Positions 3,925 through 41,147 of a stretch of DNA of 41,147 bases are shown here, piece by piece. Source of the stretch: Nitrospinota bacterium. GTDB taxonomy: Bacteria; JADFOP01; DATKYB01. Position 1 is the first letter of the stretch. Each line of letters opens with the position of its first letter. The stretch lies in the NCBI GenBank assembly GCA_035528715.1, contig DATKYB010000120.1, forward strand, positions 1-41,147, written 5' to 3'. The notes beneath the pieces were generated by a model. That model worked only from the letters and a program-made list of their open reading frames with translations, searched no databases and was not told the origin of the DNA. The position numbers were made by a program, and so were the translations under genes.

Positions 3925-5730
3925 TTGGATAAAAAATTTAAAATATCTCGTAATACTATAGTTTGTTTGTTTCTTATATTTGCTACCCTCTTGGTCTTCT
4001 GGCAGATAAAGAACCACGACTTTGTTAACTATGATGACAATAGATATATTACTGAAAACCGTCATGTTCAGGGTGGACTCACTGTTGAAGGGATTATCTG
4101 GGCTTTTACGACTACATATGCTACCAACTGGCATCCCTTAACATGGCTCTCTCACATGCTGGATATTTCTCTTTTTGGTTTGAATCCAGGTTATCATCAT
4201 CTCATGAATCTCCTCTTTCATATAGCCAACACCCTCTTATTATTTTTTATTCTCAGGAGGATGACAGGAGAGGTATGGAAGAGCGGTTTTGTTGCCGCTC
4301 TCTTTGCTCTGCATCCCTTGCATGTGGACTCAGTGGCCTGGATAGCAGAGAGAAAGGACGTTCTTTCCACCTTTTTCTTTATGCTTACTCTCTTGGCGTA
4401 TGTCTTTTATGTAGAAAAGCCGGTTTTCAGAAGATATCTCTTTGTATTCTTCTTTTTTGTTTTTGGGCTTCTGTCCAAGCCTATGCTGGTTACCCTTCCC
4501 TTTTTACTTCTTCTTCTGGACTATTGGCCCTTATCTCGCTTTGAGTCTAACAAAGATAAATCAAAAGCTAAGATACCTCTTCATCTGATATGGGAGAAGA
4601 TTCCCTTATTTGCTCTATCCTTTTTATCGAGCATTGTGACCTTCTTTGCTCGGCAGCATGGTGGGGCTGTAAAATCTCTAGAATTATTTCTATTGAATAT
4701 AAGGATTGAAAATGCCCTTATTTCCTATCTGAGCTATATTGGAAAGATGATCTGGCCATTTAACCTGGCTGTCTTTTATCCTCATCCTGGCAATAATTTA
4801 CCTTTGTTGAATGCCTTTTTAGCTCTCCTTTTTTTGCTTTTTATAACTGTTTTCGTGATGCGGAAGATAAAAAAGCTCCCTTATCTTTTTGTGGGATGGT
4901 TCTGGTATGTTGGGACGCTTGTTCCTGTTATCGGTTTGATCATGGCTGACCGATACACGTATATATCCCTTATCGGTATTTTTATCATGATTGCCTTTGG
5001 TATTCCTGATGTTTTGAAGAAATGGCAATATCAGAGGATTTTTCTTTCCCTATCAGCAGGGGGAATCCTTTCAATCCTTATGGTACTTACATGGATTCAG
5101 GTAGGCTACTGGAAGAACAGCATTACTCTTTTTGAACATGCGCTCAATGTAACTTCTAATAACTACCTAGCGCACAATAACTTAGGGGTCGTTCAGGCAA
5201 GGCGTGGAAAGCTTAACGAAGCTATTACTCATTATCATGAGGCATTGCGGATAAAGCCTGATGATACAGATACGCATAATAACTTAGGTTTTGCTCTAGC
5301 CCAACAGGGAAAACTTGAAGAAGCAATTTTTCATTTTAAAGAAGCGATAAAAATAAATCCTGATAATGAGTATGCACAGATAAACATGGGGACTGCTATG
5401 GCGCATCAAGGGAGGTTAGGGGAGGCCATTTTCCATTTTAAAGAAGCGGTAAGAATAAATCCTGATAATGAGACAACACATAAAAATTTAGCAGTTGCTT
5501 TAATCAATCAAGGAAAGATAGATGAGGCCATTTTCCATCTTAAAGAAATGGTAAGAATAAACCCTGATAATGGAACGACACATAACAATCTAGGGGTTTT
5601 TTTGGCTCGACAGGGGAAGCTTAAAGAAGCTATTTTTCATTTTCGAGAAGCGTTAAAGATTAATCCTGAAGATATGGAAGCACGTAAAAACCTGGAAAGT
5701 ATTATGTCAACGATAGAGGATTCTCGATGA
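3925..5730 (+). CDS. TMTC-like multi-pass membrane protein with five TPR repeats, paralogue A
   Basis: The protein has 601 residues, with about ten hydrophobic segments to residue ~390 and then five TPR units to the end. The acidic motif YDD in the first extracytoplasmic loop (about residues 36-38), followed by NWHPLTWLSHMLD, GYHHLMNLLFHIAN and FALHPLHVDSVAWIAER, places it in the TMTC-type GT-C group. A role in transferring a lipid-linked sugar is inferred. The start is TTG at 3925; the aligned codon in paralogue B is ATG, which supports this position despite the missing Shine-Dalgarno. Residues ~44-208 are encoded by DNA about 95% identical to paralogue B, while the flanking parts are clearly more diverged. 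The TPR part consists of near-identical 102-base units and could vary in number. Confidence 0.82.
   Translation: MDKKFKISRNTIVCLFLIFATLLVFWQIKNHDFVNYDDNRYITENRHVQGGLTVEGIIWAFTTTYATNWHPLTWLSHMLDISLFGLNPGYHHLMNLLFHIANTLLLFFILRRMTGEVWKSGFVAALFALHPLHVDSVAWIAERKDVLSTFFFMLTLLAYVFYVEKPVFRRYLFVFFFFVFGLLSKPMLVTLPFLLLLLDYWPLSRFESNKDKSKAKIPLHLIWEKIPLFALSFLSSIVTFFARQHGGAVKSLELFLLNIRIENALISYLSYIGKMIWPFNLAVFYPHPGNNLPLLNAFLALLFLLFITVFVMRKIKKLPYLFVGWFWYVGTLVPVIGLIMADRYTYISLIGIFIMIAFGIPDVLKKWQYQRIFLSLSAGGILSILMVLTWIQVGYWKNSITLFEHALNVTSNNYLAHNNLGVVQARRGKLNEAITHYHEALRIKPDDTDTHNNLGFALAQQGKLEEAIFHFKEAIKINPDNEYAQINMGTAMAHQGRLGEAIFHFKEAVRINPDNETTHKNLAVALINQGKIDEAIFHLKEMVRINPDNGTTHNNLGVFLARQGKLKEAIFHFREALKINPEDMEARKNLESIMSTIEDSR
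4055..4550 (+). repeat. Long direct repeat, copy A (partner 13833-14328)
   Basis: This 496-base stretch inside the TMTC-like gene aligns without any gap to 13833-14328. I count about 24 mismatches by eye, roughly 95% identity. Both copies are in the same orientation and about 9.8 kb apart. Identity falls sharply at both edges. Confidence 0.9.
5165..5690 (+). repeat. Tandem 102-base units encoding TPRs
   Basis: Five consecutive units of 34 codons encode TPRs of the type NLGxxLAxQGKLEEAIFHFKEALKINPD. The middle units share long identical stretches, such as GCCATTTTCCAT and AAATCCTGATAATGAG, which implies recent internal duplication. Confidence 0.75.
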
Positions 5731-13269: not shown

Positions 13270-13702
13270 AAGTTAAAATTTAAGCTTTAAATGCCGTTTT
13301 TTCATTAGAAATCTAAGTATAGTTTTAGGGCACGTTTTTCTAAATATTATTTAAAAATATTTTATAAAGAAATACTGTTATAGAAAATTTAGTGTATTTT
13401 GAACCTATGAAAGTCTAAGATAGCACTAAAGAAAATTTCTTTGAAGTTTAATGTTCATATGTTAAACTTTATTTAATAAGATTATCAAAGACATAGAACT
13501 ATTAGCTTACATTTGAAGAACTAAAAAATATCTTAATAATTTACTTTAAATATAATATTTTAAGTCTCTGGTTAATATGAGTATTTTTTATTTATTTTAA
13601 AATAAATATTATGAGAGATAGCTGTTAGTTTTAGATTGTCAGTTTCAAAAAATCTTGATTATCGTAACTCCTTTTTTGGAGAACGATCCTATACTTCATA
13701 TA
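13270..13702. other. AT-rich intergenic region with no gene
   Basis: Between the operon promoter and the ATG at 13703 I see no open frame with coding character and no RNA gene. It contains the upstream block shared with 3796-3859 (at 13431-13494) and about 200 bases with no counterpart upstream of paralogue A. A short CTCC-T6-GGAG inverted repeat lies near 13668-13681. Confidence 0.6.
13431..13494 (+). repeat. Conserved upstream block, copy B (partner at 3796-3859)
   Basis: Ungapped alignment to 3796-3859 gives about 48 of 64 identical positions. Copy B lies about 210 bases before its gene, compared with about 65 bases for copy A. Copy B has therefore gained DNA, or copy A has lost it. Confidence 0.6.
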
Positions 13703-15520
13703 ATGAATAAAAAATTCAACATATATCGTGATACTGTAGTTTGTTTGTTTCTTGTTTTAGCTATTCTTGTCGTTTTCTCTCAAGTAAAGAGTTATGACTT
13801 TGTGAGCTATGATGATGATGTATACATCACAAAAAACCGTCATGTTCAGGGTGGACTCACTGTTGAAGGGATTATCTGGGCTTTTACGATTGCACATTCT
13901 GGCAACTGGCATCCCTTGACATGGCTCTCTCACATGCTGGATATTTCTCTTTTTGGTTTGAATCCAGGTTATCATCATCTCATGAGTCTCCTCTTTCACA
14001 TAGCCAACACCCTCTTATTGTTTTTTATTCTCAGGAGGATGACAGGTGAAATTTGGAAGAGCGGTTTTGTTGCCGCTCTTTTTGCTCTGCATCCCTTGCA
14101 TGTGGAGTCAGTGGCCTGGATAGCAGAGAGAAAGGACGTTCTTTCCACCTTTTTCTTTATGCTAACGATATTGGCGTATGTCTTTTATGTAGAAAAGCCG
14201 GTTTTAAGAAGATATCTCTTTGTATTCTTCTTTTTTGTTTTTGGTCTTCTGTCCAAGCCTATGCTGGTTACCCTTCCCTTTTTACTTCTTCTTCTGGACT
14301 ATTGGCCCTTATCTCGTTTTGAGTTTAAATCAAAAGCTAAAAATTTCAAAGTCCCTCTTCATCTGATATGGGAGAAGGTTCCTCTATTTGCCCTTACAGC
14401 TTTATCAAGCATTGTGACCTTTTTTGCTGAGAAGCACGGAAAATCTGTAAGTTCATTAGAAATCTTCCCTATTAAGACCAGAATTGCTAATACTTTTGTT
14501 TCTTATGTAAGTTATATAGGAAAGATGATCTGGTCTCTAAATCTAGCGGTCTTCTATCCATACCCAGAGATATTCCCTATATGGCAAGTCATGGGATCCC
14601 TCTTGTTACTGGTCTGCATATCTTTTCTTGTAATCCGTCATGCTAGGAGTCTTCCCTATCTTCCCGTAGGGTGGCTTTGGTATCTGGGAACCCTTGTTCC
14701 TGTGATTGGTCTAGTTCAGATAGGTTCCCAGTCCATGGCTGATCGGTACACATACGTGTCTCTCATTGGTCTTTTTATTATGATTGCATGGGGGGTCCCT
14801 GATATCTTAAAAAGATGGCGCTATCAAAGAATTGTTCTTTCCGTATCTTTAGGAATAATTCTTTTGTTATTGATGATTTTTACATGGTATCAGACAATCA
14901 ACTGGAAAAATAGCATTACCCTTTTTGAGCATGCTCTTAAGGTCACTACTCGCAATAACATAGCCCACAACAACCTAGGAACGGCGCTCGCTAGGGAGGG
15001 GAAACTCGAAGAGGCCATTTACCAATTTAGAGAAGCACTGAAGGGAAAACCCGATTTTTCAGATGCCCACTACAATCTTGGAACTGCTCTGGGTATACTG
15101 GGAAACCACGAAGAGGCCGTTTACCATCTCCGAGAAGCACTGAAAGGGGAAACCGGCCTCTCAGAGGTACACAACAAAATTGGAAGGCTATTAAGTCAAC
15201 AGAAAAAGTTTAATGAAGCGATTTACCACTTTCAAAAAGCACTAGAGATTAATCCAGACTTTGCGAATGCTCATAACAACATAGGAATTGTTCTCGGGCA
15301 ACAAGGAAGGCTTGAAGAAGCGATTTACCATTTTCGAGAAGCGCTGAGAACAAAGCCCTACTATGCAAAAGCCCATAACAACCTTGGTGTTACTCTGGGA
15401 CAACAAGGAAAGCTTGAAGAAGCAATCTACCATTTCCAGAAAGCACTGGAAATCAACCCAGGCTTCAAAGATGCAGAGAATAACTTAAGAAAAACCCTGA
15501 GCCTAAAGAAAAAATTTTAA
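13703..15520 (+). CDS. TMTC-like multi-pass membrane protein with five TPR repeats, paralogue B
   Basis: From ATG 13703 the protein has 605 residues and the same plan as the gene at 3925: about ten hydrophobic segments with YDD in the first loop, then five TPR units from about residue 415. A longer frame starts at TTG 13655, but its extra 16 residues have no counterpart in paralogue A and no ribosome site, so I use the ATG that aligns with A's start. The loop before MADRYTYVSLIG has a short insertion (QIGSQS) relative to A. The TPR region has diverged strongly from A while residues ~44-209 are almost identical. This suggests different partner specificities on a common catalytic core. A role in sugar transfer is inferred from family and context. 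Confidence 0.82.
   Translation: MNKKFNIYRDTVVCLFLVLAILVVFSQVKSYDFVSYDDDVYITKNRHVQGGLTVEGIIWAFTIAHSGNWHPLTWLSHMLDISLFGLNPGYHHLMSLLFHIANTLLLFFILRRMTGEIWKSGFVAALFALHPLHVESVAWIAERKDVLSTFFFMLTILAYVFYVEKPVLRRYLFVFFFFVFGLLSKPMLVTLPFLLLLLDYWPLSRFEFKSKAKNFKVPLHLIWEKVPLFALTALSSIVTFFAEKHGKSVSSLEIFPIKTRIANTFVSYVSYIGKMIWSLNLAVFYPYPEIFPIWQVMGSLLLLVCISFLVIRHARSLPYLPVGWLWYLGTLVPVIGLVQIGSQSMADRYTYVSLIGLFIMIAWGVPDILKRWRYQRIVLSVSLGIILLLLMIFTWYQTINWKNSITLFEHALKVTTRNNIAHNNLGTALAREGKLEEAIYQFREALKGKPDFSDAHYNLGTALGILGNHEEAVYHLREALKGETGLSEVHNKIGRLLSQQKKFNEAIYHFQKALEINPDFANAHNNIGIVLGQQGRLEEAIYHFREALRTKPYYAKAHNNLGVTLGQQGKLEEAIYHFQKALEINPGFKDAENNLRKTLSLKKKF
13833..14328 (+). repeat. Long direct repeat, copy B (partner 4055-4550)
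   Basis: Same length as copy A with no indels and about 95% identity by eye. It covers codons for NRHVQGGL through the loop after DYWPLSRFE. Confidence 0.9.
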
Positions 15521-29897: not shown

Positions 29898-30692
29898 TTA
29901 TCTCTGAAAATTCCATTCTTGAGTTGTGTACTTTTCTTTCCTTAGCCTTTCTGACAATCTCTTCTCGTAGAGAGTTAATTTATCCTGAAACAATGGTCCG
30001 AAAGACTTATTAAGCGCCTCTATGAGGGCCTTGGAAACTTCTCTAAATGAGATCTTTCTGTTTAAAACCTCCTGAAGACTGATCATTCTATTATCATCCT
30101 CTGTTTTAAAAATAGAAGTCCATTTCTCTCTGTTTAAATTTAAAAGGATTGAACCCTGTTGGAGCAGAAAGTTTCTGCTCCTCTTTTGTGCACTTCCAAT
30201 AATCTTTTTCCCCTGAGTAACAATCTCATAGAGAGAAGAGGAGGAAAAGCATGATGGTGAATCTATACCCTTTGTCTGTCCCCTTTTTCTTTTTGATGAT
30301 AACTCAGCTAAAACACCGATGCTTTTTAATCCGGAAACCAAGGCATGACTTATAATCCTATAAGGTTCAAGGACACCATTACGAGAAAAGGCGTCTAAGC
30401 TTGATATAATGCTATAGGTGACCTCCTCTTCATGAAAGACAGCCCTTCCTCCTGTTGGCCTCCTTACCATATCCAAGGATAACTCATTCATTCTTTTAGA
30501 TTCAAACAGATATGATGTCTTTTGGAAATACCCTATTGATATGGCCGGGGGATTCCAGCCATAAAATCGTATCGTTTTTGGCGAAAATCCTTTTTCACAT
30601 GCAATGAATATCGCTTCATCGATGGCCATATTCATATAACCATCATAAAAAACATCTTTGATTAATCTCCATCCTTCCCTCTTATTATTCAT
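29898..30692 (-). CDS. lipM: Octanoyltransferase LipM-like (lipoate/biotin ligase superfamily)
   Basis: The 264-residue protein belongs to the LplA/LipB/BirA fold. RRPTGGRAVFHEEEVTYSI (from residue 77) is the acyl-adenylate/acyl-binding loop. SPSCFSSSSLYEIV holds Cys148 at the place of the catalytic Cys150 of Bacillus subtilis LipM, and GKKIIGSAQKR then LLQQGSILL complete the site. LipM moves octanoate from acyl carrier protein to the lysine of GcvH. This fits its position as last gene of the glycine cleavage operon. A lipoate-protein ligase is the alternative, but the Cys motif favours LipM. Sulfur insertion (LipA) must be encoded elsewhere. It follows gcvPB after 52 bases. Confidence 0.85.
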   Translation of the reverse strand: MNNKREGWRLIKDVFYDGYMNMAIDEAIFIACEKGFSPKTIRFYGWNPPAISIGYFQKTSYLFESKRMNELSLDMVRRPTGGRAVFHEEEVTYSIISSLDAFSRNGVLEPYRIISHALVSGLKSIGVLAELSSKRKRGQTKGIDSPSCFSSSSLYEIVTQGKKIIGSAQKRSRNFLLQQGSILLNLNREKWTSIFKTEDDNRMISLQEVLNRKISFREVSKALIEALNKSFGPLFQDKLTLYEKRLSERLRKEKYTTQEWNFQR

Positions 30693-30744
30693 GATTATTC
30701 TCTAGCTTTTTGGTTTATCATGAAAAGTATGGATGGATTTTTCT

Positions 30745-32229
30745 TTAGTCTTTCCATCTTAGTTGAGGTTCTCTTGCGGCGGAGGTTTCATCTAAACGTA
30801 ATACTTTGGTTTTATGGGGGGCATTCTTCAATTTATCTGGTTCATCTTTTGCCTCCCTTGCAATCTCTTGCATCGCCCAGATAAACTCTTCCAGGCTTTC
30901 TTTACTTTCTGTCTCGGTTGGCTCTATCATGATTGCGCCCTTCACAATCAATGGGAAATATATGGTTGGAGGATGAAAACCATAATCCATAAGTCTTTTA
31001 GCAATATCTAAAGTTGTTACACCATTTTTATTCTGAATTTTATCAGAAAAGACACATTCGTGCTTACAAACTCTATTATAGGAAAGGTCATAGTAATCTT
31101 TTAATTTATTCATAATATAATTGGCATTGATTACTGCGACTTCACTAGCTTCCTTAAGTCCTTCTCCACCCATAGATCTTATATAGGCATAAGCCCTAAC
31201 CATGATAGCAAAATTTCCATAAAAGCTATGAACTTTTCCGATTGAAAAAGGCCTATCATATTCTAAGTAAAATCTTTCACCATCTTTCTCAACAGTGGGA
31301 CTCGGCATAAAAGGAACAAGATGTTCCTTTATCCCAACTGGACCTGCTCCTGGACCCCCTCCTCCATGAGGAGTGGAAAATGTCTTATGGAGGTTAATAT
31401 GAACAACATCTATACCCATATCTCCGTATCTCACCTTCCCCATCAGTGCATTAAGATTAGCTCCGTCACAATATACCAGTCCTCCTTTTTGATGGATCAT
31501 ATCAGAAATTTCTAAGATATCTTCTTCAAAAAGACCAAGGGTATTCGGATTTGTCAGCATAATAGCTGCCGCATCCTCATCAACAATTCTCGAAAGTTCA
31601 TCTAGATCGATACACCCCCGACTGTTTGATCTTACCACTATACTTTTATATCCACATAGTGTAGCACTGGCTGGATTGGTCCCATGAGCAGAATCTGGAA
31701 TAATAACCTTTTTTCTCGGATTACCCCTGGACTTTAAATATTCCCTTATCATCATCAAACCTACCACCTCTCCCTGAGCACCAGCAGAAGGTTGTAATGT
31801 AACTCTGTCCATCCCGCAGATATCTTTTAAGTACTGTTCGAGTTCATACATGAGTTGTAAAGAACCCTGACAAAGCTCTTCAGGAGTATACGGATGGAGT
31901 TCAGAAAAACCCGAAAACCTTGATATATCCTCATTCACTTTGGGATTATACTTCATCGTGCAAGACCCCAGAGGATAAAAACCTAAATCTACACCGTAAT
32001 TCCATTGGGACATCCTCACAAAATGCCTTACAATATCTACCTCGCTAACCTCAGGAAAACCTTCAATCTCATCTCTATATAAGCCCTCAGGAATTAAAGC
32101 TTTAATATTTTCTTCTGGTACATCACATGATGGAAGTGAAAATGCCTCTCTTTTTTTGGAGCTCTTTTCAAAAATTAAAGGCTCGTTAAAAACCAAACCC
32201 TTTGCTCCTATCATTCTTTGCTCTTTCAT
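30745..32229 (-). CDS. gcvPB: Glycine dehydrogenase (decarboxylating) subunit 2
   Basis: From ATG 32229 the product has 494 residues, normal for the PLP-bearing half of the two-subunit P protein. DSAHGTNPASATLCGY, YCDGANLNALMG and HINLHKTFSTPHGGGGPG are diagnostic; the Schiff-base lysine is in NLHKTFS (K282 in this numbering). Together with GcvPA it decarboxylates glycine and passes the aminomethyl group to lipoyl-GcvH. A longer frame starts at GTG 32259 and overlaps gcvPA by 11 bases, but ATG 32229 has AGGAG five bases upstream and is the better start. The C-terminus has PHKTKVLRLDETSAAREP, typical of this subunit. Confidence 0.96.
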   Translation of the reverse strand: MKEQRMIGAKGLVFNEPLIFEKSSKKREAFSLPSCDVPEENIKALIPEGLYRDEIEGFPEVSEVDIVRHFVRMSQWNYGVDLGFYPLGSCTMKYNPKVNEDISRFSGFSELHPYTPEELCQGSLQLMYELEQYLKDICGMDRVTLQPSAGAQGEVVGLMMIREYLKSRGNPRKKVIIPDSAHGTNPASATLCGYKSIVVRSNSRGCIDLDELSRIVDEDAAAIMLTNPNTLGLFEEDILEISDMIHQKGGLVYCDGANLNALMGKVRYGDMGIDVVHINLHKTFSTPHGGGGPGAGPVGIKEHLVPFMPSPTVEKDGERFYLEYDRPFSIGKVHSFYGNFAIMVRAYAYIRSMGGEGLKEASEVAVINANYIMNKLKDYYDLSYNRVCKHECVFSDKIQNKNGVTTLDIAKRLMDYGFHPPTIYFPLIVKGAIMIEPTETESKESLEEFIWAMQEIAREAKDEPDKLKNAPHKTKVLRLDETSAAREPQLRWKD

Positions 32230-32248
32230 CAATTCTCCTAAATTTGGA

Positions 32249-33589
32249 CTATAGAGCACTCAAAACTCTACAGAGAATATCAATATCCTCTTTTGTATTC
32301 TTTTCAGTAACACAGAAGAGAAGTGAATCTTTCATCTCCGGATAAAACCTTAATAAGGCTAATCCCCCTATGATATTCTTTTGTAATAACCATTCATTGA
32401 CTTTCTCTAAAGGCAGTTTCGATCTGACTACAAATTCATTAAACGTGGGAATACTCATATCAACGGAAAAGTTTCTCATCTTTGAAATCTCTTTTTTTAC
32501 ATAGTTCGCTTTGTAAAGATTCAATTCTGCAAGTTTTTTCATGCCCCTCCTTCCTAAGGTAGAAAGATAGATAGACGCAGCTAAAGCACAAAGAGATTGA
32601 TTCGTACAGATATTTGAGGTGGCTTTTTCTCTTCTTATATGCTGTTCTCTGGTAGCCATTGTAAGAACATAACCTCTCTGCAAACTTTTATCTGTAGTTG
32701 CTCCTACAATCCTTCCTGGAATATTCCTTACATACTTCTCTTTTGTAGCAAAAATGCCAAGGCTTGGGCCACCAAAATTTATGGGGTTCCCAAAAACCTG
32801 CCCTTCCCCAACTACTATGTCACAATCAAAAGCCCCAGGAGGTTTTAAAATTCCCAATGCAATGGGCTCAACAACAACAACGATCAGGAGAGCTTCTTTT
32901 TCCCTTGCAACCTCAGAAATCTTTTTTATATCCTCAATGGAGCCGAAAAAGTTTGGATATTGGATGATCACTGAAGAGCTGTTAGAAGAAACAAGCATTT
33001 TTACTTCATTCGAATCTGTAAACAGATTCTTTGTAAATGGTATTTCTTTAATCTCTAAATCAAGGGACTGGGTATAGGTATTTAAAACCTTTCTATATTC
33101 AGGGTGGACAGCTTGAGAAATAAGTATCTCTTTTCTATTATTAATACGATTTGCCATTAAAACAGCTTCTGCGAGAGCAGAAGCACCATCATACATAGAT
33201 GCATTTGTAATCTCCATGTCTGTAAGCTGACAGATAAGGGTCTGATATTCATAGATTCCCTGGAGTGTACCTTGACTTATTTCTGGTTGATAAGGGGTAT
33301 AAGCTGTATAGAACTCGGATCGCGATACGAGGTGTTCGACCACACTTGGGATATAGTGACCATAACTCCCAGCACCTAAAAAAGATATATATTCAGTACC
33401 AGCGTTTTTCTCGCTTAATAAATTTAAATGGCTCTTGAGCTCTGGCTCTGATAAAGCTGAAGGTAACTTAAGATTCTCTTTAAGCCTAATCTTTTCTGGT
33501 ATATCTGTAAAAAGTTCTGTAACATCCCTAACCCCTATTGCTCTTAGCATCTCTCTACAGTCATCATCTGTGTTAGGAATATATCTCAT
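32249..33589 (-). CDS. gcvPA: Glycine dehydrogenase (decarboxylating) subunit 1
   Basis: The 446-residue product is the first half of the split P protein. MRYIPNTDDDCREMLRAIG, SFLGAGSYGHYIPSVVEHL, TPYQPEISQGTLQGIYEYQT and GPSLGIFATKEKYVRNIPGR are all hallmark segments. It has a PLP-enzyme fold but no cofactor lysine, as expected, and forms a dimer of heterodimers with GcvPB. AAAGGA overlapping the gcvH stop serves as ribosome site. The ten-base gap to gcvH indicates co-transcription. The split form is usual in Firmicutes, Thermotogae, archaea and many deep-branching diderms and differs from the fused E. coli GcvP. Confidence 0.97.
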   Translation of the reverse strand: MRYIPNTDDDCREMLRAIGVRDVTELFTDIPEKIRLKENLKLPSALSEPELKSHLNLLSEKNAGTEYISFLGAGSYGHYIPSVVEHLVSRSEFYTAYTPYQPEISQGTLQGIYEYQTLICQLTDMEITNASMYDGASALAEAVLMANRINNRKEILISQAVHPEYRKVLNTYTQSLDLEIKEIPFTKNLFTDSNEVKMLVSSNSSSVIIQYPNFFGSIEDIKKISEVAREKEALLIVVVVEPIALGILKPPGAFDCDIVVGEGQVFGNPINFGGPSLGIFATKEKYVRNIPGRIVGATTDKSLQRGYVLTMATREQHIRREKATSNICTNQSLCALAASIYLSTLGRRGMKKLAELNLYKANYVKKEISKMRNFSVDMSIPTFNEFVVRSKLPLEKVNEWLLQKNIIGGLALLRFYPEMKDSLLFCVTEKNTKEDIDILCRVLSAL

Positions 33590-33599
33590 CTAGATTCCT

Positions 33600-33989
33600 T
33601 TATTTCTTTTCTTCTTTGATAAAGGCTTCATATTCTTCAGCTGAAAGAAGCGCATCAATTTCATCCTCATCACTTATTTTTACAACAATGAGCCATCCGT
33701 CTCCATAGGGATCAGAATTTATTAATTCAGGTTCTTCTTTCAGTGCTTCATTGATTTCTAATACCTCTCCGGTTACAGGAGAATATAAGTCAGAGACTGC
33801 CTTGACAGATTCAACTACTCCAAAAGTCCCCATCTGCTCAACCTCACTTCCTACCTCTGGGAGCTCCACGAAAACAACATCTCCTAATTCTTCCTGGGCA
33901 TGGTCGGTAATGCCGATAATAGCTTTACCACCCTCAATCCTCGTCCACTCGTGTTCCTTTGAATACTTTAAATCTTTTGGAAATTCCAT
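33600..33989 (-). CDS. gcvH: Glycine cleavage system H protein
   Basis: The 129-residue protein carries the swinging lipoyl arm of the glycine cleavage system. The opening YSKEHEWTRIEG, the GITDHAQEELGDVVFVELP strand and the lipoyl site VVESVKAVSDLYSPVTGEV place the modified lysine at K63. The C-terminus (PYGDGWLIVVKI) is standard. It shuttles the aminomethyl group from P to T protein and is re-oxidised by lipoamide dehydrogenase, which is not in this window. GGAGGAG lies about ten bases before the ATG. A 144-base gap separates it from gcvT, without a clear promoter or terminator. Confidence 0.97.
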   Translation of the reverse strand: MEFPKDLKYSKEHEWTRIEGGKAIIGITDHAQEELGDVVFVELPEVGSEVEQMGTFGVVESVKAVSDLYSPVTGEVLEINEALKEEPELINSDPYGDGWLIVVKISDEDEIDALLSAEEYEAFIKEEKK

Positions 33990-34133
33990 TTTTCTCTCTC
34001 CTCCTTTTCTGTTTATCTTCTTTATAAAAATTTACCAAAAGCTAAAATTTTATTAATCCCAAATAATTTTCTTTTCACAAATGATAATCGAGGCCAAATC
34101 ACTCAATGAATCAACAATACATTAAAAAGGCGG

Positions 34134-35252
34134 TTAATGAATCCTTTCAACCCGAGAGGAATAAAAAGGAGTCTTAACAATTTTTGCCTTTACCCTTTTA
34201 TCCCTTATTGCTATATCCAAAGCAGTACCAATATCTGAATAAACAATACTAACATATCCTATTCCAATAGGCTTTTTTAAGGAAGGAGACATGGTTCCAC
34301 TCGTCACATTTCCAACCTTTATATTTTTATGATATAATGAATTTGATGAGCGTGGAATCCCTCTCTCTATAGCTTCAAAACCTATTAATTTTCTATCTAC
34401 TCCTTTTTCCTTTTGTTTTAAAAGCACCTCCTTTCCAATAAAATCTTCCTTGTTGAGTTTTACAACCCAATCAAGACTTGCATCAAAAGGTGTGGTTTGG
34501 GAATCAATATCATTTCCATATAAAGGATACTTCATTTCTATTCGGAGGGTATCTCTAGCCCCTAAGCCTGCTGGCTTTATTCCAAACTCTTCCCCCGCAT
34601 TAAATATCGCATCCCATATCTTTTGTGCCTTTTTATGATTAAAATATATCTCAAAACCATCCTCCCCAGTATAGCCAGTCCTTGATATAATTGATTCAAC
34701 CCCGTCTATCCTACCTCTTTTAAACCAGAAATATCTGATTGAAGAAAGTTTAATATCCGAAAGCCGCTGTAAAACCTCCTCAGACTTTTTCCCCTGTATG
34801 GCCAGTTGACAAAGTTCTTCAGCTACATTAATCACTTCGGCATTTTCTTTATTATTGCTTTTTATCCAATCTAAATCTTTATCTGCATTAATTGCATTCA
34901 CGCACAACATTAATCTTTCATCTTCTATTTTATACACAGTAATATCATCAACGATACCTCCATAAGGGTAACACATCAGTGAATATTGAATCTGATCATT
35001 CTTGAGTCTTGAAACGTCATTTGATGTTAGCCTCTGTATTAATTGGAGAGCTTTTTTGCCCCTGATTTCAATTTTACCCATATGGCTTACATCAAAAACA
35101 CCCACCTGACTTCTGACACAGTTATGCTCATCAATAATGCCTGAATATTGCACCGGCATCTCCCATCCAGCAAAATCTATAAGCCTGGCTCCTAATTTTT
35201 TATGAATACTATGAAAAGGAGTCTTTTTTATTGAAAAACCTCCTTCTGTCAC
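34134..35252 (-). CDS. gcvT: Glycine cleavage system T protein (aminomethyltransferase)
   Basis: The 372-residue frame encodes a complete T protein, which releases ammonia and passes the one-carbon unit to tetrahydrofolate. Hallmarks are LGARLIDFAGWEMPVQYSG, VGVFDVSHMGKIEIRG, ISRTGYTGEDGFEIYF, LGARDTLRIEMKYPLYGND and GNVTSGTMSPSLKKPIGIGY. The start is unsettled. GTG at 35252 has no Shine-Dalgarno. A perfect AAGGAGG (35239-35245) lies inside the frame, seven bases ahead of an ATA codon (35229-35231) whose downstream residues KKTPFHSIHKKLGAR coincide with the usual N-terminus of the family. I report the longer frame because GTG is a normal start, but initiation at ATA is a real alternative. It is first gene of the operon, with promoter at 35341-35368. 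Confidence 0.95.
   Translation of the reverse strand: MTEGGFSIKKTPFHSIHKKLGARLIDFAGWEMPVQYSGIIDEHNCVRSQVGVFDVSHMGKIEIRGKKALQLIQRLTSNDVSRLKNDQIQYSLMCYPYGGIVDDITVYKIEDERLMLCVNAINADKDLDWIKSNNKENAEVINVAEELCQLAIQGKKSEEVLQRLSDIKLSSIRYFWFKRGRIDGVESIISRTGYTGEDGFEIYFNHKKAQKIWDAIFNAGEEFGIKPAGLGARDTLRIEMKYPLYGNDIDSQTTPFDASLDWVVKLNKEDFIGKEVLLKQKEKGVDRKLIGFEAIERGIPRSSNSLYHKNIKVGNVTSGTMSPSLKKPIGIGYVSIVYSDIGTALDIAIRDKRVKAKIVKTPFYSSRVERIH
35229..35245 (-). promoter_or_regulatory. Strong ribosome binding site seven bases before an ATA codon in gcvT
   Basis: Minus strand AAGGAGG (35239-35245), spacer TTTTTCA, then ATA (35229-35231). No ATG, GTG or TTG lies at workable spacing. The codon aligns with the family's usual first Met. 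Confidence 0.55.
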
Positions 35253-35544: not shown

Positions 35545-37848
35545 TTAAGAAAAAGCTATAGGTTCTAAATTTTTGGCTTTCACTCCTCTCATTTCCATTA
35601 TGTTCTTTAAAGTCCTGTCCACAGTAAAAAATATCATCTGCCAACCATCTTCTGTAATATCAAATAAAATATCTAAAATTCGAGATATCCTTTCAGAATC
35701 AAAAGTTAAAAATGGATCATCCAGAAGCAAAAATCCTTTTTGTTTCTTTAGACTCCTTTCCGCTAATGCTATTCTTATAGCCATATAGAACTGGTTTAAT
35801 GTTCCGCTGCTTAGCCACTCAATTGGTTTTTCTTCGCCAGAGGGGAGTTCGACCATAACATCAACAAGATCCCATCTCTTAACGATAATTCTATCGTATC
35901 TAAAATTTGTTATTTGAGAAAATAGTTCAGAAGACCTCTCTTCTAAAATATTTTTCACCTGAAGAGTAGCCTCTTTTTCAATATCCCGCATAATAAAATA
36001 AGCTGCCTCTGCTGCCTCACGCTCCAGTAGAAAATTATCTAGTTCCTTTTTCTTCTCGTCGAGCTTAAGAAGGATATCTATCTTCTCTATACCCATTAAA
36101 CCTCCCTTTAATTCTCCAATAGAAACCCGGAGTTCATGCACCTCGTTTTTTCTTTTTTCCACTTCATTCCTGAGTTCTAGAATCTCATTATTTAATCTAT
36201 TATATTTCTCTTCATCCCAAGGGATATTTTCTATCTTATCTTTATCTCTCACTCTTTCTTCTAAAGCTTCAATCCGATCTACAACGATATTCATATCTGG
36301 GCTGCCTATAAGTCCTTCCATCTCTTTTGTCAATCCCCTAAAATTCTCTTTTATAGATAGATATTCATCCCATTTTTCCTTAAACTGTTCAAGAGAAACG
36401 AACCCTGTTATCTCTTTAATCTTCATTATTTTTTTATCAATAAAATCGATATTTTCACGAATCTCATCAATCTCTTTTTCAATATTTTTTCTTTCATTTT
36501 GTAGTATCTCAGCCTGTCTCTTCTTTTCCCTTGATTCACCTTCATCTCTATTTATCTCTCTTCTTTTTCCTTCTATCCTATCTTTAAGGTCATCGATATC
36601 TGTATTCTCCCAGTCCTCTCCAAGATTCACTAGAAAGCTATTTGTCTTTATCGATAGCTTATCCAATTCCTCTTCCAATTCCCTTGCTTTTTTATAACTT
36701 TTTTTCAAATAAAAAATCAGAATAACAGGAATTAATATAATGAGAATCATTCCTAACAATACTTCCTTTTTCCAAATAAACCCTATAGCAAAAAGAAGCA
36801 AGGCTGACAAAAAACATGAGGATTGTATAATACGAATAGCTTTTTTTACCTTCTTAGAATCTTTAAACGCTGATAATTTTTTCTTCATATCATTATACTG
36901 TTTAACATCCTTTTCTAAATTTACAATTGTTTCAGTAATACTCTGCCAACCCATAATACGAGACATTAAATTCTTTATATCCTCTTCCAATTCCTTTTTT
37001 TTCACATCAACTTCTCTACTTCTTTTTTTATAAATATTGCTTTCATTTACAAGCTTTTCCTTATTCTTTGAAAATTCCGACCACTCCTTTAATTCTTCTT
37101 CTTTAAAATGGCTATATGAATTAAGCTCCTTTTTCTTTTCTTTAATCTTTTTATAAATCTCCTTTATCTTGATAAGTTCATCCCTTTCTCTAGCCTTTTC
37201 TAATGCCTTTTTATTTTCTTCAGCCTCTTTAAGTCTTGTCTCTAAATTATTTAATTCTCCAAACCTGATATCCATCTCCTTTTCTTTATTGATTAATGTT
37301 TCAACCTTCGTTCTTTTATCCTCATACGTACTTATCTCATCCCTTAGCGCATCCTCATCTTTCCATACCTTTGTCCTGGACTCCTTCTCTCCATGTGGGT
37401 TTATGCCAGCGTTCTTTCGCAGTTCCTCAATCACACCCTTTAAATCACCATGCATGCCAAGAATCCTATTTATCAGCATAGCTGTCCATGCCTTCTTCCT
37501 AAAATCATTTTTATCAAATATAACCTCGCCTGCTCTTATACAGAATACGTTTTTAAAAAATAACGGGCTTAAAGAGGAAATCTTATAAAAATTACCTTTT
37601 TGAGGTAGTGATATCTCCTGTCCATTATGAATCAGAATTAATTCTCCTTTAAAACCTTCCTGATACCTCTTTTCCCATACAGGAAATATCCTCTTATTGT
37701 ATCCATAGAGTGCACAAAAGATTGCATCAATCAGAGTTGTTTTTCCTGATTCATTTTTTCCATAAAAAAGGCTTACATGATCATCGAAGTCAAATACCAC
37801 ATCATTGAACATGCCAAATTTTTCAATGGTTAACCTTTTTAATCTCAA
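35545..37848 (-). CDS. Rad50/SbcC/YhaN-like ATPase with central membrane hairpin
   Basis: From TTG 37848 the product has 767 residues. Domains in order: ABC-type ATPase half with Walker A GKNESGKT (residues 30-37), long coiled coil (~180-335), two hydrophobic segments (~340-358 and ~363-381) separated by WKKEV, second coiled coil (~385-620), and C-terminal ATPase half with signature WLSSGTLNQ and Walker B FLLLDDPF. This is the plan of Rad50/SbcC, but no CxxC zinc hook is seen. Like Bacillus YhaN it carries a predicted membrane pair mid-coil. TTG 37848 overlaps the stop of the phosphoesterase gene (TTGA), with AAGGAGGG just upstream. That is better supported than ATG 37887, which would overlap by 43 bases. 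It probably pairs with that nuclease on DNA ends. Confidence 0.88.
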   Translation of the reverse strand: MRLKRLTIEKFGMFNDVVFDFDDHVSLFYGKNESGKTTLIDAIFCALYGYNKRIFPVWEKRYQEGFKGELILIHNGQEISLPQKGNFYKISSLSPLFFKNVFCIRAGEVIFDKNDFRKKAWTAMLINRILGMHGDLKGVIEELRKNAGINPHGEKESRTKVWKDEDALRDEISTYEDKRTKVETLINKEKEMDIRFGELNNLETRLKEAEENKKALEKARERDELIKIKEIYKKIKEKKKELNSYSHFKEEELKEWSEFSKNKEKLVNESNIYKKRSREVDVKKKELEEDIKNLMSRIMGWQSITETIVNLEKDVKQYNDMKKKLSAFKDSKKVKKAIRIIQSSCFLSALLLFAIGFIWKKEVLLGMILIILIPVILIFYLKKSYKKARELEEELDKLSIKTNSFLVNLGEDWENTDIDDLKDRIEGKRREINRDEGESREKKRQAEILQNERKNIEKEIDEIRENIDFIDKKIMKIKEITGFVSLEQFKEKWDEYLSIKENFRGLTKEMEGLIGSPDMNIVVDRIEALEERVRDKDKIENIPWDEEKYNRLNNEILELRNEVEKRKNEVHELRVSIGELKGGLMGIEKIDILLKLDEKKKELDNFLLEREAAEAAYFIMRDIEKEATLQVKNILEERSSELFSQITNFRYDRIIVKRWDLVDVMVELPSGEEKPIEWLSSGTLNQFYMAIRIALAERSLKKQKGFLLLDDPFLTFDSERISRILDILFDITEDGWQMIFFTVDRTLKNIMEMRGVKAKNLEPIAFS

Positions 37849-38984
37849 CCAAGCCCTCCTTTTTCTCTTAATTCTTTCAGTCCGCAACTGAGTGCTCTCT
37901 TGTAAATATTTCTCTCTTTATCTGTTTCGGCTTGTTCAATCCTTTCTTCTACCTTTTTTATAAAACTGAGACACACCGGAAAGTCTTTGAACTGCGCTAT
38001 ACTTAAAATCTCATTTTTTATACTAAACTCTGGGAAGCGACAGGCATATTTATCAGTAATATAATCAAGATATCTCTTGAGAGCCCTTTCATCTTCAACG
38101 ACGCCTTCAATCCTGATGAGAGGCCATATCTTCCTGTTAGCTCCCTCTTTTATTCTTTTTCCCATTTCCTGATCAATCTGTGAAAACACATTCTTTACTT
38201 CTCCTATCCTTATCATAAACGGTCCAATGCTCTCAATTCTCAGAGCAGTCTCAATGGTAATGTCTTGAATTTCTATTTTTCCTTTATTTTTAATGTCTGC
38301 AAGAACGACTTTTCTTTCGCTTGCCTCATTTATCTTCATCGGTTCAGGGGTTCCGGGATAGACAGCTATTGTCTCACCAATGACCCTTTTTGAAAAATGA
38401 TTATGGATATGTCCTAAGGCTAAATAATCAAATCCCCATGACTCGACATCCCCTGTTTCAACAGGAAAATATTCATCTTTTTCAATATCCATTTCTTGAA
38501 CAAAAGATCGTATTTCCCTCTCATCCACCAACGTCCCATGAAGAATTCCAATATTAATCTTTTTTATGTCTTTTTGGACCTCTGATATTGGTAACAAATC
38601 TCTTGCCTTCTTTCCCTTTTGGAAAGGAATGCAATAAAACACAATATCTTGTCCAAGGCTATCAAAAATTTGATAAGGTCCCTCGCTTCCTATGAATACA
38701 TTTTCACCGTAAAACATTTCAGGGGCAAAGGATTCTACCTCACCTTTAATATCATGATTTCCTGGTACAATTATTATTTTTATAGGGCTTATCCTTTCAA
38801 AGGCTTTTTTCATCTTTTCTCTTGCCTCTTGACTGGCTTGTATAGGAGAATCAAAAATGTCACCTGAAATTATTAAATAATCAACCTTCTCAACCCTAGC
38901 CTTTTCACAAATCCAAAAGAAGGTATTCCATCTCCTTTCAGAATCTTCTTGTAGATGTAAATCTGCCGTGTGAAGTATCTTCAC
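37845..38984 (-). CDS. Mre11/SbcD/YhaO-type metallophosphoesterase, putative DNA nuclease
   Basis: The 379-residue protein shows the calcineurin-like phosphoesterase motifs in order: TADLHL (D8, H10), ISGDIFD (D42), VPGNHD (N76, H77, D78), GILHGTL (H149) and LALGHIHNHF (H192, H194). The GHIH after ALG and the C-terminal ~120 residues resemble the Mre11/SbcD capping and partner-binding regions. Members cut DNA ends and hairpins together with a Rad50-type ATPase, which is encoded directly downstream with a four-base overlap. The start is GTG 38984; GAGGTAAGAGGTAAG immediately upstream offers two overlapping ribosome sites. It lies 69 bases after the endonuclease Q gene on the same strand. Confidence 0.92.
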   Translation of the reverse strand: MKILHTADLHLQEDSERRWNTFFWICEKARVEKVDYLIISGDIFDSPIQASQEAREKMKKAFERISPIKIIIVPGNHDIKGEVESFAPEMFYGENVFIGSEGPYQIFDSLGQDIVFYCIPFQKGKKARDLLPISEVQKDIKKINIGILHGTLVDEREIRSFVQEMDIEKDEYFPVETGDVESWGFDYLALGHIHNHFSKRVIGETIAVYPGTPEPMKINEASERKVVLADIKNKGKIEIQDITIETALRIESIGPFMIRIGEVKNVFSQIDQEMGKRIKEGANRKIWPLIRIEGVVEDERALKRYLDYITDKYACRFPEFSIKNEILSIAQFKDFPVCLSFIKKVEERIEQAETDKERNIYKRALSCGLKELREKGGLG

Positions 38985-39053
38985 CTTACCTCTTACCTCT
39001 ATATAATATTTTTCTACTACACACTATTTTCAGAAAACTATTTTAATTCTCTA

Positions 39054-40316
39054 TTAAAACAGGTTCATCTGTTCCTTTTGCTCATCTTCATCAAAACCCT
39101 GTTCTTTACTCTCCTCAAATATCTTAATTTTGCCAAAAACCCCGTCATATCCTGGAACAATATTAAATTTTCCCTCTCTGACTCTCATTACTCCCTCTGA
39201 AACCTTTGGATGAGCATACCTAGAAAGCTCTTCTTTTTCTATATCAAGAAGAATCTTAAATTCTGATCCACCCCATTCTATGAGACGATCATACTCATTA
39301 TCTACGGCCTTTGTTCCAACAGAAACACCAAAGGCATCAGCTATAATCTCCCCTAGTGGCACAACATATCTAGCAGGAATACTATTTTCAGGCTTAAATC
39401 CTTCTTCCCTATCAGCAAGGTCATCTACCCTATGCATCACACCAATGGTAAGAGCCTTCTTACAAACAGGGCAGATATTATTAACCTCTTGACTTTCCTT
39501 GGGAGAAAAAAGTATCTGGCAATTTCTGTGTCCATCATAATGATATTTGCCTTCCTCTGGATAAAACTCAATCGTAAAAAGAAATCTCTGTCTATCTTTG
39601 TTTTTGATAACTTCCATAATCGTTCTATAATCCCTCTCGCAGTCAAAAACATTGGCCTCTCTCCCTATTTTTTGGGGAGAATGAGCATCTGAATTAGATA
39701 TCAGGCATATCCTATCTAGCTGGGATAGCCTCCAGTTCATAGAGGGATCAGATGACAGGCCTGTTTCAATAGCATAAATATTATTTACTTCTTCTTCAAA
39801 ACATTCTTCGAGAGAATCAAACCCTGAATTAGCCCCAAACAAAGAAAACCAAGGAGTCCATGCATGGGCTGGAACTAAAAGACATTCTTCTGAAATATCT
39901 AAAACCAGTTTAACGAGGTTTTTTGCTGAAAATCCGAAAATAGGTCTGCCATCCGCAGAAAGTTTACCTTTCCCTGCTAATTTTGTATTTATTTTTTCAA
40001 CCACTTTTATACTTGGAGCAAAGACAACAGTATGGATTTTCCTCAGTCGCCCTCCCTGATGATATATATTGCTTACCTCTCCTGTAAGGATAAAATCTGT
40101 CTTTTCATCTCCTCTTTTTAACTGAAAGAGACCATTACCTTTAGGTTCTAGTTTTGTCTTTAGCTCGGATAGATAGAACGGATGGGTAAAATCTCCTGTT
40201 CCCATGAGATCAATTCCTTTTTTCTTAGCCCATCTTCCCAGGGCTTCTACCTCCATCTCTTTGCTGGTTGCTCTGCTATACTTTGAATGAATATGAAAAT
40301 CAGCAATAAATTTCAT
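39054..40316 (-). CDS. Endonuclease Q (EndoQ), PHP-domain nuclease for deaminated bases
   Basis: From ATG 40316 the protein has 420 residues, almost the same as Pyrococcus furiosus EndoQ (about 424). The PHP-domain metal ligands are visible: DFHIH (D6, H8, H10), GTGDFTHP (D42, H45), LTGEVS (E80), KIHTV (H95), PAHAWTPWFS (H151) and SNSDAHS (D210, H212). A zinc-finger-like insert follows with Cys 266, 282 and 285 (NICPVC), and then a C-terminal helical region. EndoQ nicks DNA 5' of uracil, hypoxanthine or xanthine and at abasic sites. It is known mainly from Thermococcales and a few bacteria. I chose ATG 40316 over GTG 40325 because GAGGTG sits six bases before the ATG and overlaps the GTG. Its operon partners are nuclease genes. 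Confidence 0.9.
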   Translation of the reverse strand: MKFIADFHIHSKYSRATSKEMEVEALGRWAKKKGIDLMGTGDFTHPFYLSELKTKLEPKGNGLFQLKRGDEKTDFILTGEVSNIYHQGGRLRKIHTVVFAPSIKVVEKINTKLAGKGKLSADGRPIFGFSAKNLVKLVLDISEECLLVPAHAWTPWFSLFGANSGFDSLEECFEEEVNNIYAIETGLSSDPSMNWRLSQLDRICLISNSDAHSPQKIGREANVFDCERDYRTIMEVIKNKDRQRFLFTIEFYPEEGKYHYDGHRNCQILFSPKESQEVNNICPVCKKALTIGVMHRVDDLADREEGFKPENSIPARYVVPLGEIIADAFGVSVGTKAVDNEYDRLIEWGGSEFKILLDIEKEELSRYAHPKVSEGVMRVREGKFNIVPGYDGVFGKIKIFEESKEQGFDEDEQKEQMNLF

Positions 40317-40385
40317 ATATCTCACCTCGAATAGTAAAAAACTCGAACAAGATTATCATCACGTTTATATCCATTAAACCATTAA

Positions 40386-40970
40386 CTAACTAAGATTTAA
40401 CAAAATTGATTCATAGATAAACTGCCTACCACCGGCGTTCAACAACTCCTCCTGTCTTATGAGGAGCCTTTTTTTATAAAGATTTATCAGTCGAGTACTA
40501 CTTGTATTAAGCTCTATTCCTAATCTGTCTGCTACTTCTCTGGAAGTCATCTTACCATTTCGCATAACGAAAAATAACGTCTCTTTAAGATAATTATTTA
40601 AAGGACCGATTATTTCCAATGGACCTTTTTCCGTTAAATTTAAGACCGATAGCCTCTTTCTTTCCAAAGCGACCTCAATATTCTCCCTCTGATGAGGATT
40701 CAATCCTTTGATCAAAATATACTTTTCACCGTATTCTCCAGAGATTAATCTCGACACTAATTTAGCAACAATTTCATCACCGCAGGAATAATCGATGATA
40801 CCGATATTGGAAAAGTTAAGAAGGATAATGACTGACTCCTTAAGTAACTTCAATTCTCTTTCTATCCTCTCTCTGATTCTATTTCCTGTCTCTCTTGTAA
40901 CAAGGTCATTAGAGCCGTTATTAAGCTCCTGATCTATTATACTTTTCATATCATAATCAACAATTTTCAT
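40386..40970 (-). CDS. STAS-like (DUF4325-type) plus winged-helix protein, putative regulator
   Basis: The 194-residue protein has two parts. Residues ~25-105 are a STAS-like alpha/beta domain (ESVIILLNFSNIGIIDYSCG followed by EIVAKLVSRLISGEYGEKYI), the DUF4325 pattern. Residues ~125-190 are a winged helix-turn-helix of MarR/ArsR appearance (MTSREVADRLGIELNTSSTR then LYKKRLLIRQEE and a GGRQFIYES wing). A transcription or translation regulator answering to a partner protein is inferred. It is the gene directly before endonuclease Q, 60 bases upstream, so it may control this repair operon. GAGG lies five bases before the ATG. The family function is not established. Confidence 0.75.
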   Translation of the reverse strand: MKIVDYDMKSIIDQELNNGSNDLVTRETGNRIRERIERELKLLKESVIILLNFSNIGIIDYSCGDEIVAKLVSRLISGEYGEKYILIKGLNPHQRENIEVALERKRLSVLNLTEKGPLEIIGPLNNYLKETLFFVMRNGKMTSREVADRLGIELNTSSTRLINLYKKRLLIRQEELLNAGGRQFIYESILLNLS

Positions 40971-40977
40971 AGAAACC

Positions 40978-41147
40978 TCATAAAAAAGGGAAATTCAAAG
41001 CATTAAAACACGACCCTTCTCTTTTATCAAAGAAGCCTAGTTGTTGTTCCCTCTTATATTTATCAAATTCCTCGAAAAAGGTCTTCTTAGAAAGGGTGCA
41101 TACCTCTGTTTCAATGTCAGGATTTTTACAAGCGCATATATGACCTT
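40978..41147 (-). CDS. C-terminal end of an unidentified cysteine-containing protein (cut by window edge)
   Basis: The minus-strand frame is open from the window end to a TGA at 40978-40980. It encodes 56 residues beginning GHICACKNPDIETEVCTL and ending SCFNALNFPFL. Three closely placed cysteines (CAC and one at +12) plus one near the end suggest metal or Fe-S binding. I do not recognise the family. The stop is seven bases from the start of the STAS-like gene and overlaps its ribosome site, so the two are very probably in one operon. Confidence 0.6.
   Translation of the reverse strand, partial: GHICACKNPDIETEVCTLSKKTFFEEFDKYKREQQLGFFDKREGSCFNALNFPFL

Follow-up and report, generated by a model that had tools for sequence, protein, structure and literature searches.

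Four genes on the minus strand of a 41,147-nucleotide stretch of Nitrospinota DNA (contig DATKYB010000120.1 of assembly GCA_035528715.1, hereafter the window) place a base-lesion enzyme, endonuclease Q (EndoQ), next to a nuclease-ATPase pair of the Mre11/Rad50 kind. The window spans the whole of contig G000:C120, which belongs to a bacterial genome (G000) of 2.0 Mb and 97% completeness. In the order of transcription, the genes encode a candidate regulator of 194 amino acids with a STAS-like/DUF4325-like domain and a winged helix (STAS-wHTH; 40386..40970), which is the first visible gene of the putative operon, an EndoQ of about 420 amino acids (39054..40325, the probable true start being the ATG at 40316), a YhaO/SbcD/Mre11-type nuclease of 379 amino acids (Mre11L; 37845..38984) and a YhaN (SbcE)-type Rad50-like ATPase (Rad50L; 35545..37848). 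The called frame of the last gene extends to 37887, and translation probably starts from a TTG at 37848, which lies just downstream of an AGGAGG, overlaps the Mre11L stop codon as TTGA and yields about 767 amino acids. All four genes are intact, gaps of 60 bp (on the STAS-EndoQ side) and 69 bp separate the first three, and Mre11L and Rad50L overlap by 2 nucleotides. The dense one-strand clustering described in an earlier interpretation made from the DNA letters (the sequence-only reading) is thus borne out, and the operon that it proposed appears to be right, with limits set by gene spacing.

The identity of EndoQ, also proposed in that reading, could be confirmed by structure and model searches. 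The protein matches PfuEndoQ (5zb8) over residues 8-407, nearly the full length, with E=4.9e-52, and the TIGR00375 model with E=9e-54, under the cut-off of that model. Its residues E83, H98 and H154, invariant in an alignment of 16 bacterial sequences (A1), align with E76, H84 and H139 of PfuEndoQ, substitutions of which abolish activity (PMC8307549). Judged by fold similarity and catalytic residues, it is a genuine EndoQ. The protein ends in QMNLF, a beta-clamp-type motif, and a Q-x-x-[LIM]-[FLI] tail occurs in 89 of 102 complete EndoQ frames, compared with 6 of 1024 control frames longer than 150 amino acids from the same loci. Archaeal EndoQ binds PCNA through a C-terminal tail of this kind, and a beta-clamp-type motif has already been pointed out in a few bacterial sequences (PMC4858679); as far as motifs can tell, the clamp-type tail is general among bacterial EndoQ proteins (102 frames), beyond the few noted before.

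EndoQ had been described as rare in bacteria, which the present tally contradicts: it occurs in 25 of 98 sampled genomes (25 of 97 genera), and named genomes contain at least 591 confirmed relatives. The view of EndoQ as an archaeal enzyme is thereby corrected, as it is widespread in candidate phyla and nearly always carries the clamp-type tail. It is unevenly distributed, and its tree does not keep phyla apart; the window sequence groups with others labelled Nitrospirota, Thermodesulfobacteriota and Deltaproteobacteria/Myxococcota. The neighbours of EndoQ vary by lineage as well. At 17 loci, mostly of Omnitrophota (e.g., L074, L081 and L100), the gene lies in or beside an apparent pyrimidine biosynthesis operon on the same strand, with dihydroorotase-, aspartate carbamoyltransferase-, PyrR- and carbamoyl-phosphate synthase-like genes, names that were read from sequence. 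A MutM/Fpg-like glycosylase, named from its MPELPEVET start, lies within four genes on the same strand at L032, L081, L089, L092 and L134. A UvrD-type helicase is fused to EndoQ in frames of about 980-1270 amino acids at L044, L045, L046, L049, L051, L052 and L053 and directly follows it at L047 and L123, which amounts to 9 of 104 EndoQ loci.

The nuclease-ATPase pair could be typed more narrowly than the SbcCD/YhaON class named in the sequence-only reading. In Mre11L the metallophosphoesterase motifs DLHL, GDIFD, GNHD, HG and GHIH are all intact, and the protein matches Metallophos (E=3e-13), SbcD structures (E=6e-10) and the SbcD model (E of about 1e-15; 58 bits, under the 77.65-bit cut-off). 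Rad50L matches AAA_27 (E=1.3e-9; 38 bits against a cut-off of 22), stays far under the cut-offs of the Rad50 and SbcC models and carries a Walker A motif (GKNESGKT), a signature motif (LSSGT at 692) and a Walker B motif (FLLLDDP). A zinc-hook CxxC is not present in Rad50L, and a hydropathy scan revealed two adjacent hydrophobic segments in the middle of the coiled coil (353-371 and 376-394), predicted to form a transmembrane hairpin; each of the 18 homologous ATPases scanned has at least one segment of this kind. Because of the missing CxxC hook, the mid-coil hydrophobic segments and the AAA_27 match, the pair is assigned by its sequence features to the YhaO-YhaN (SbcEF) type, and a true SbcCD or Mre11-Rad50 complex is ruled out by the missing zinc hook and the scores below cut-off. 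No second SbcD-type gene was found besides Mre11L in the window genome, nor besides the corresponding gene in the related genome G001. In Bacillus pumilus, peroxide induces the yhaONM cluster, which has been described as putatively serving double-strand-break repair; the same paper lists yhaO and yhaN with the LexA/SOS regulon, and the title of a reference that it cites terms YhaN/SbcE a DNA double-strand-break repair protein (PMC3896406). In 3 of the 17 genomes with a UvrD helicase that carries a PDDEXK/Cas4-like nuclease at its C-terminus, the helicase gene adjoins YhaO-YhaN; the three genomes belong to different families (L230:4166-11296, L237:5889-12627 and L175:5701-11957).

The STAS-wHTH protein is less sharply defined. 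Its Pfam matches are weak (winged-helix families such as MarR_2, E=4.6e-4; DUF4325, 0.11), a DUF4325 match of 2.6e-4 is obtained with a 52%-identical relative in G022, and a single-sequence AlphaFold model reached a pLDDT of 45. Relatives with 51-53% identity are found in G001, G002, G022 and G287 (alignment A2). Those of G022 (C7:6137-6697, L177) and G287 (C143, L178), at 51-52% identity, have no YhaON, EndoQ or AAG nearby, so this family of regulators also occurs apart from YhaON. The protein is likely the regulator of the operon.

A comparison with G001 and G002, the only sampled relatives from the same class (all others are related to the window genome at domain level only), unveiled a different enzyme at the same address. 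The window reads STAS, EndoQ, Mre11L, Rad50L, gcvT, gcvH, gcvPA, gcvPB, lplA. On one strand of G001 the order is STAS, the methylpurine-DNA glycosylase AAG (PF02245, E=1.9e-67), a UvrD helicase that ends in a PDDEXK nuclease domain, an Mre11-type and a Rad50-type gene, followed by an isochorismatase-like gene, gcvH, sarcosine/glycine-reductase-like genes and lplA. Five genes (STAS, Mre11, Rad50, gcvH and lplA) are therefore common to both in the same order and orientation, at a GC content of 36% in the window and 58% in G001, and G002 shows STAS-AAG-UvrD as far as its contig reaches. EndoQ was not found in G001 or G002, and neither a PF02245 protein nor a full UvrD-PDDEXK homologue was found in the window genome. 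EndoQ and AAG plus UvrD-PDDEXK thus alternate at one address between the window and a sister family. Besides methylated purines, AAG-family enzymes also excise hypoxanthine, which makes it plausible that EndoQ and the G001 AAG both initiate hypoxanthine repair.

The nuclease pair itself seems to have changed at this address. In trees of the Mre11-type proteins (31 rows) and of the ATPases (18 rows), the window pair groups with G056, G029 and relatives, and the G001 pair falls into another subfamily. Simple vertical inheritance, with window and G001 pairs as a clade, was rejected by the approximately unbiased test (p=0.0006 for Mre11 and 2e-13 for the ATPase). The pair was likely replaced in place between the two genomes, which is a likelihood rather than a proof, given the long branches and the difference in base composition (36% versus 58-66% GC).

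Taken together, the data are best explained by a co-transcribed DNA-damage operon in which a slot for a base-lesion enzyme lies beside the YhaON end-processing machine of the cell, a reading that is considered probable, if only just. EndoQ, probably tethered to the replication sliding clamp by QMNLF, would nick DNA on the 5' side of a deaminated base or an abasic site and leave a 3'-OH for repair synthesis. The membrane-anchored YhaO-YhaN would process DNA ends, including breaks that arise from opposed lesion incisions or from incisions met by replication, and the STAS-wHTH protein would regulate the operon. The genes would then belong to one damage programme in which YhaON is not an obligate step after EndoQ. 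That a base-lesion enzyme is seen beside YhaON twice, with non-homologous enzymes, fits a common DNA-damage programme and does not show a hand-off.

Several observations weigh against the damage operon. Searches for homologues of Mre11L, Rad50L and STAS with window, G001 and G056 queries found none at the 103 other EndoQ loci; 63 of these extend at least 3 kb upstream and at least 3.5 kb downstream. Neither EndoQ nor AAG was found near 29 other YhaON loci examined. Besides EndoQ, the window genome has genes for a UDG-family protein and EndoV, so EndoQ may be redundant. The STAS gene lies only 177 bp from the contig end, and promoter- and terminator-like sites at the locus occur at chance level in scans, so that the operon limits follow from spacing.

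It is also conceivable that EndoQ is a bystander, which entered an existing repair or housekeeping operon by horizontal transfer and is tied to YhaON by co-expression only. The patchy occurrence of EndoQ, its phylum-mixing tree, its absence from both same-class genomes, its lineage-dependent neighbours (such as the pyrimidine-biosynthesis genes in Omnitrophota) and the failure of the EndoQ-YhaON neighbourhood to recur elsewhere would all be expected in this case. However, the presence of AAG, also a base-lesion enzyme, at the same address would then be an unlikely coincidence, an argument that is post hoc and drawn from a single lineage pair. Acquisition as a bystander is held to be somewhat unlikely.

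The sequence-only reading had gone further and proposed a dedicated route from EndoQ to the Mre11/Rad50-like pair, in which YhaO-YhaN would act directly on EndoQ-nicked DNA and remove the 5' lesion-bearing strand as the obligate next step. As a general pathway this does not hold, since the 103 EndoQ neighbourhoods without the pair rule out a conserved EndoQ-YhaON pathway; what survives is the base-lesion enzyme AAG at the same address in G001 and G002. The adjacency and coupling of EndoQ and the pair in the window, this second enzyme in the slot of the sister family and the lack of another SbcD-type gene in the window genome speak for such a hand-off. On the other hand, the partner of EndoQ is a UvrD-type helicase, fused or directly adjacent, in 9 of 104 cases, and EndoQ and YhaON lie at separate sites in G029, G037 and G077, among others. 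Moreover, the lesion stays on a 5' end after the EndoQ cut, and the canonical polarity of the Mre11 exonuclease is 3'-5'. Given the lack of recurrence and a 5' lesion strand, which a 3'-5' Mre11 nuclease would not usually take as its substrate, the dedicated hand-off is unproven and quite unlikely. An anti-phage module, in which EndoQ would attack uracil- or hypoxanthine-containing phage DNA for degradation by YhaON at the membrane, is most improbable: bacterial EndoQ has been proposed to act in defence (PMC8307549), and many defence systems contain a nuclease-ATPase pair, but PADLOC returned generic P-loop and phosphoesterase matches only, with no specific system and nothing for EndoQ or STAS, and the address of the locus, by the gcv/lplA metabolic genes, is a conserved one and not an island.

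Within the favoured damage operon, a bolder version can be formulated for this class, in which an interchangeable slot (EndoQ or AAG) at a regulated locus feeds the membrane-anchored Mre11/Rad50-like machine, and the cell deliberately converts deaminated or alkylated bases into ends for YhaO-YhaN. It is regarded as unlikely, and no description of such a lesion-specific entry into end resection was found in the literature searched. The steps that follow the EndoQ nick are poorly known and YhaO-YhaN lacks a well-defined substrate; two unrelated damaged-base enzymes that alternate beside the only SbcD-type gene of a genome provide a concrete pair to test together.

Downstream of the four genes, on the same strand and outside the system, lie gcvT, gcvH, gcvPA, gcvPB and lplA (29898..35252). 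The glycine module is also swapped between the two genomes, with gcvT-gcvH-gcvPA-gcvPB in the window and gcvH plus sarcosine/glycine reductase genes in G001 (L175/L274), followed by lplA in both. Upstream, a 55-codon open frame with four cysteines (40978..41145, minus strand) is cut by the contig end and may not be coding. It is the cysteine protein in which the sequence-only reading saw a possible further component; Pfam gave no match for it, and no other contig was found to match the contig end. Elsewhere in the window, large membrane proteins whose C-termini carry TPR-like repeats are encoded at three places, 96-2054, 3925-5730 and 13655-15520, and those at 3925 and 13655 are very alike.

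Compared with known systems, the window EndoQ shares with the archaeal PfuEndoQ and TkoEndoQ and with Bacillus pumilus EndoQ the whole-length fold family, the catalytic residues, the Cys-rich Zn region and a C-terminal clamp-binding-type motif. It differs from the archaeal enzymes in that its QMNLF tail is of the bacterial clamp type and not a PIP box, and from all three in that its gene adjoins YhaO-YhaN. The pair resembles SbcCD and Mre11-Rad50 in its nuclease and ATPase motifs and its gene pairing, but has no zinc hook, has a short coiled coil with a predicted transmembrane hairpin and scores below all SbcC, SbcD and Rad50 cut-offs. As in Bacillus YhaO-YhaN (SbcEF, where SbcE is YhaN), an Mre11-type phosphoesterase precedes a Rad50-like AAA_27-family ATPase, whereas EndoQ and STAS-wHTH take the place of the third gene, yhaM, as neighbours. 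The archaeal HerA-NurA-Mre11-Rad50 operon likewise contains Mre11/Rad50 genes in a repair operon, and the UvrD-PDDEXK helicase-nuclease directly beside the pair in G001, G077 and G138 resembles a bacterial counterpart of it. In the window, by contrast, the pair has no adjacent helicase-nuclease and EndoQ stands in that place. The gene families are thus known, and the combination of EndoQ, YhaON and STAS is new in the data examined.

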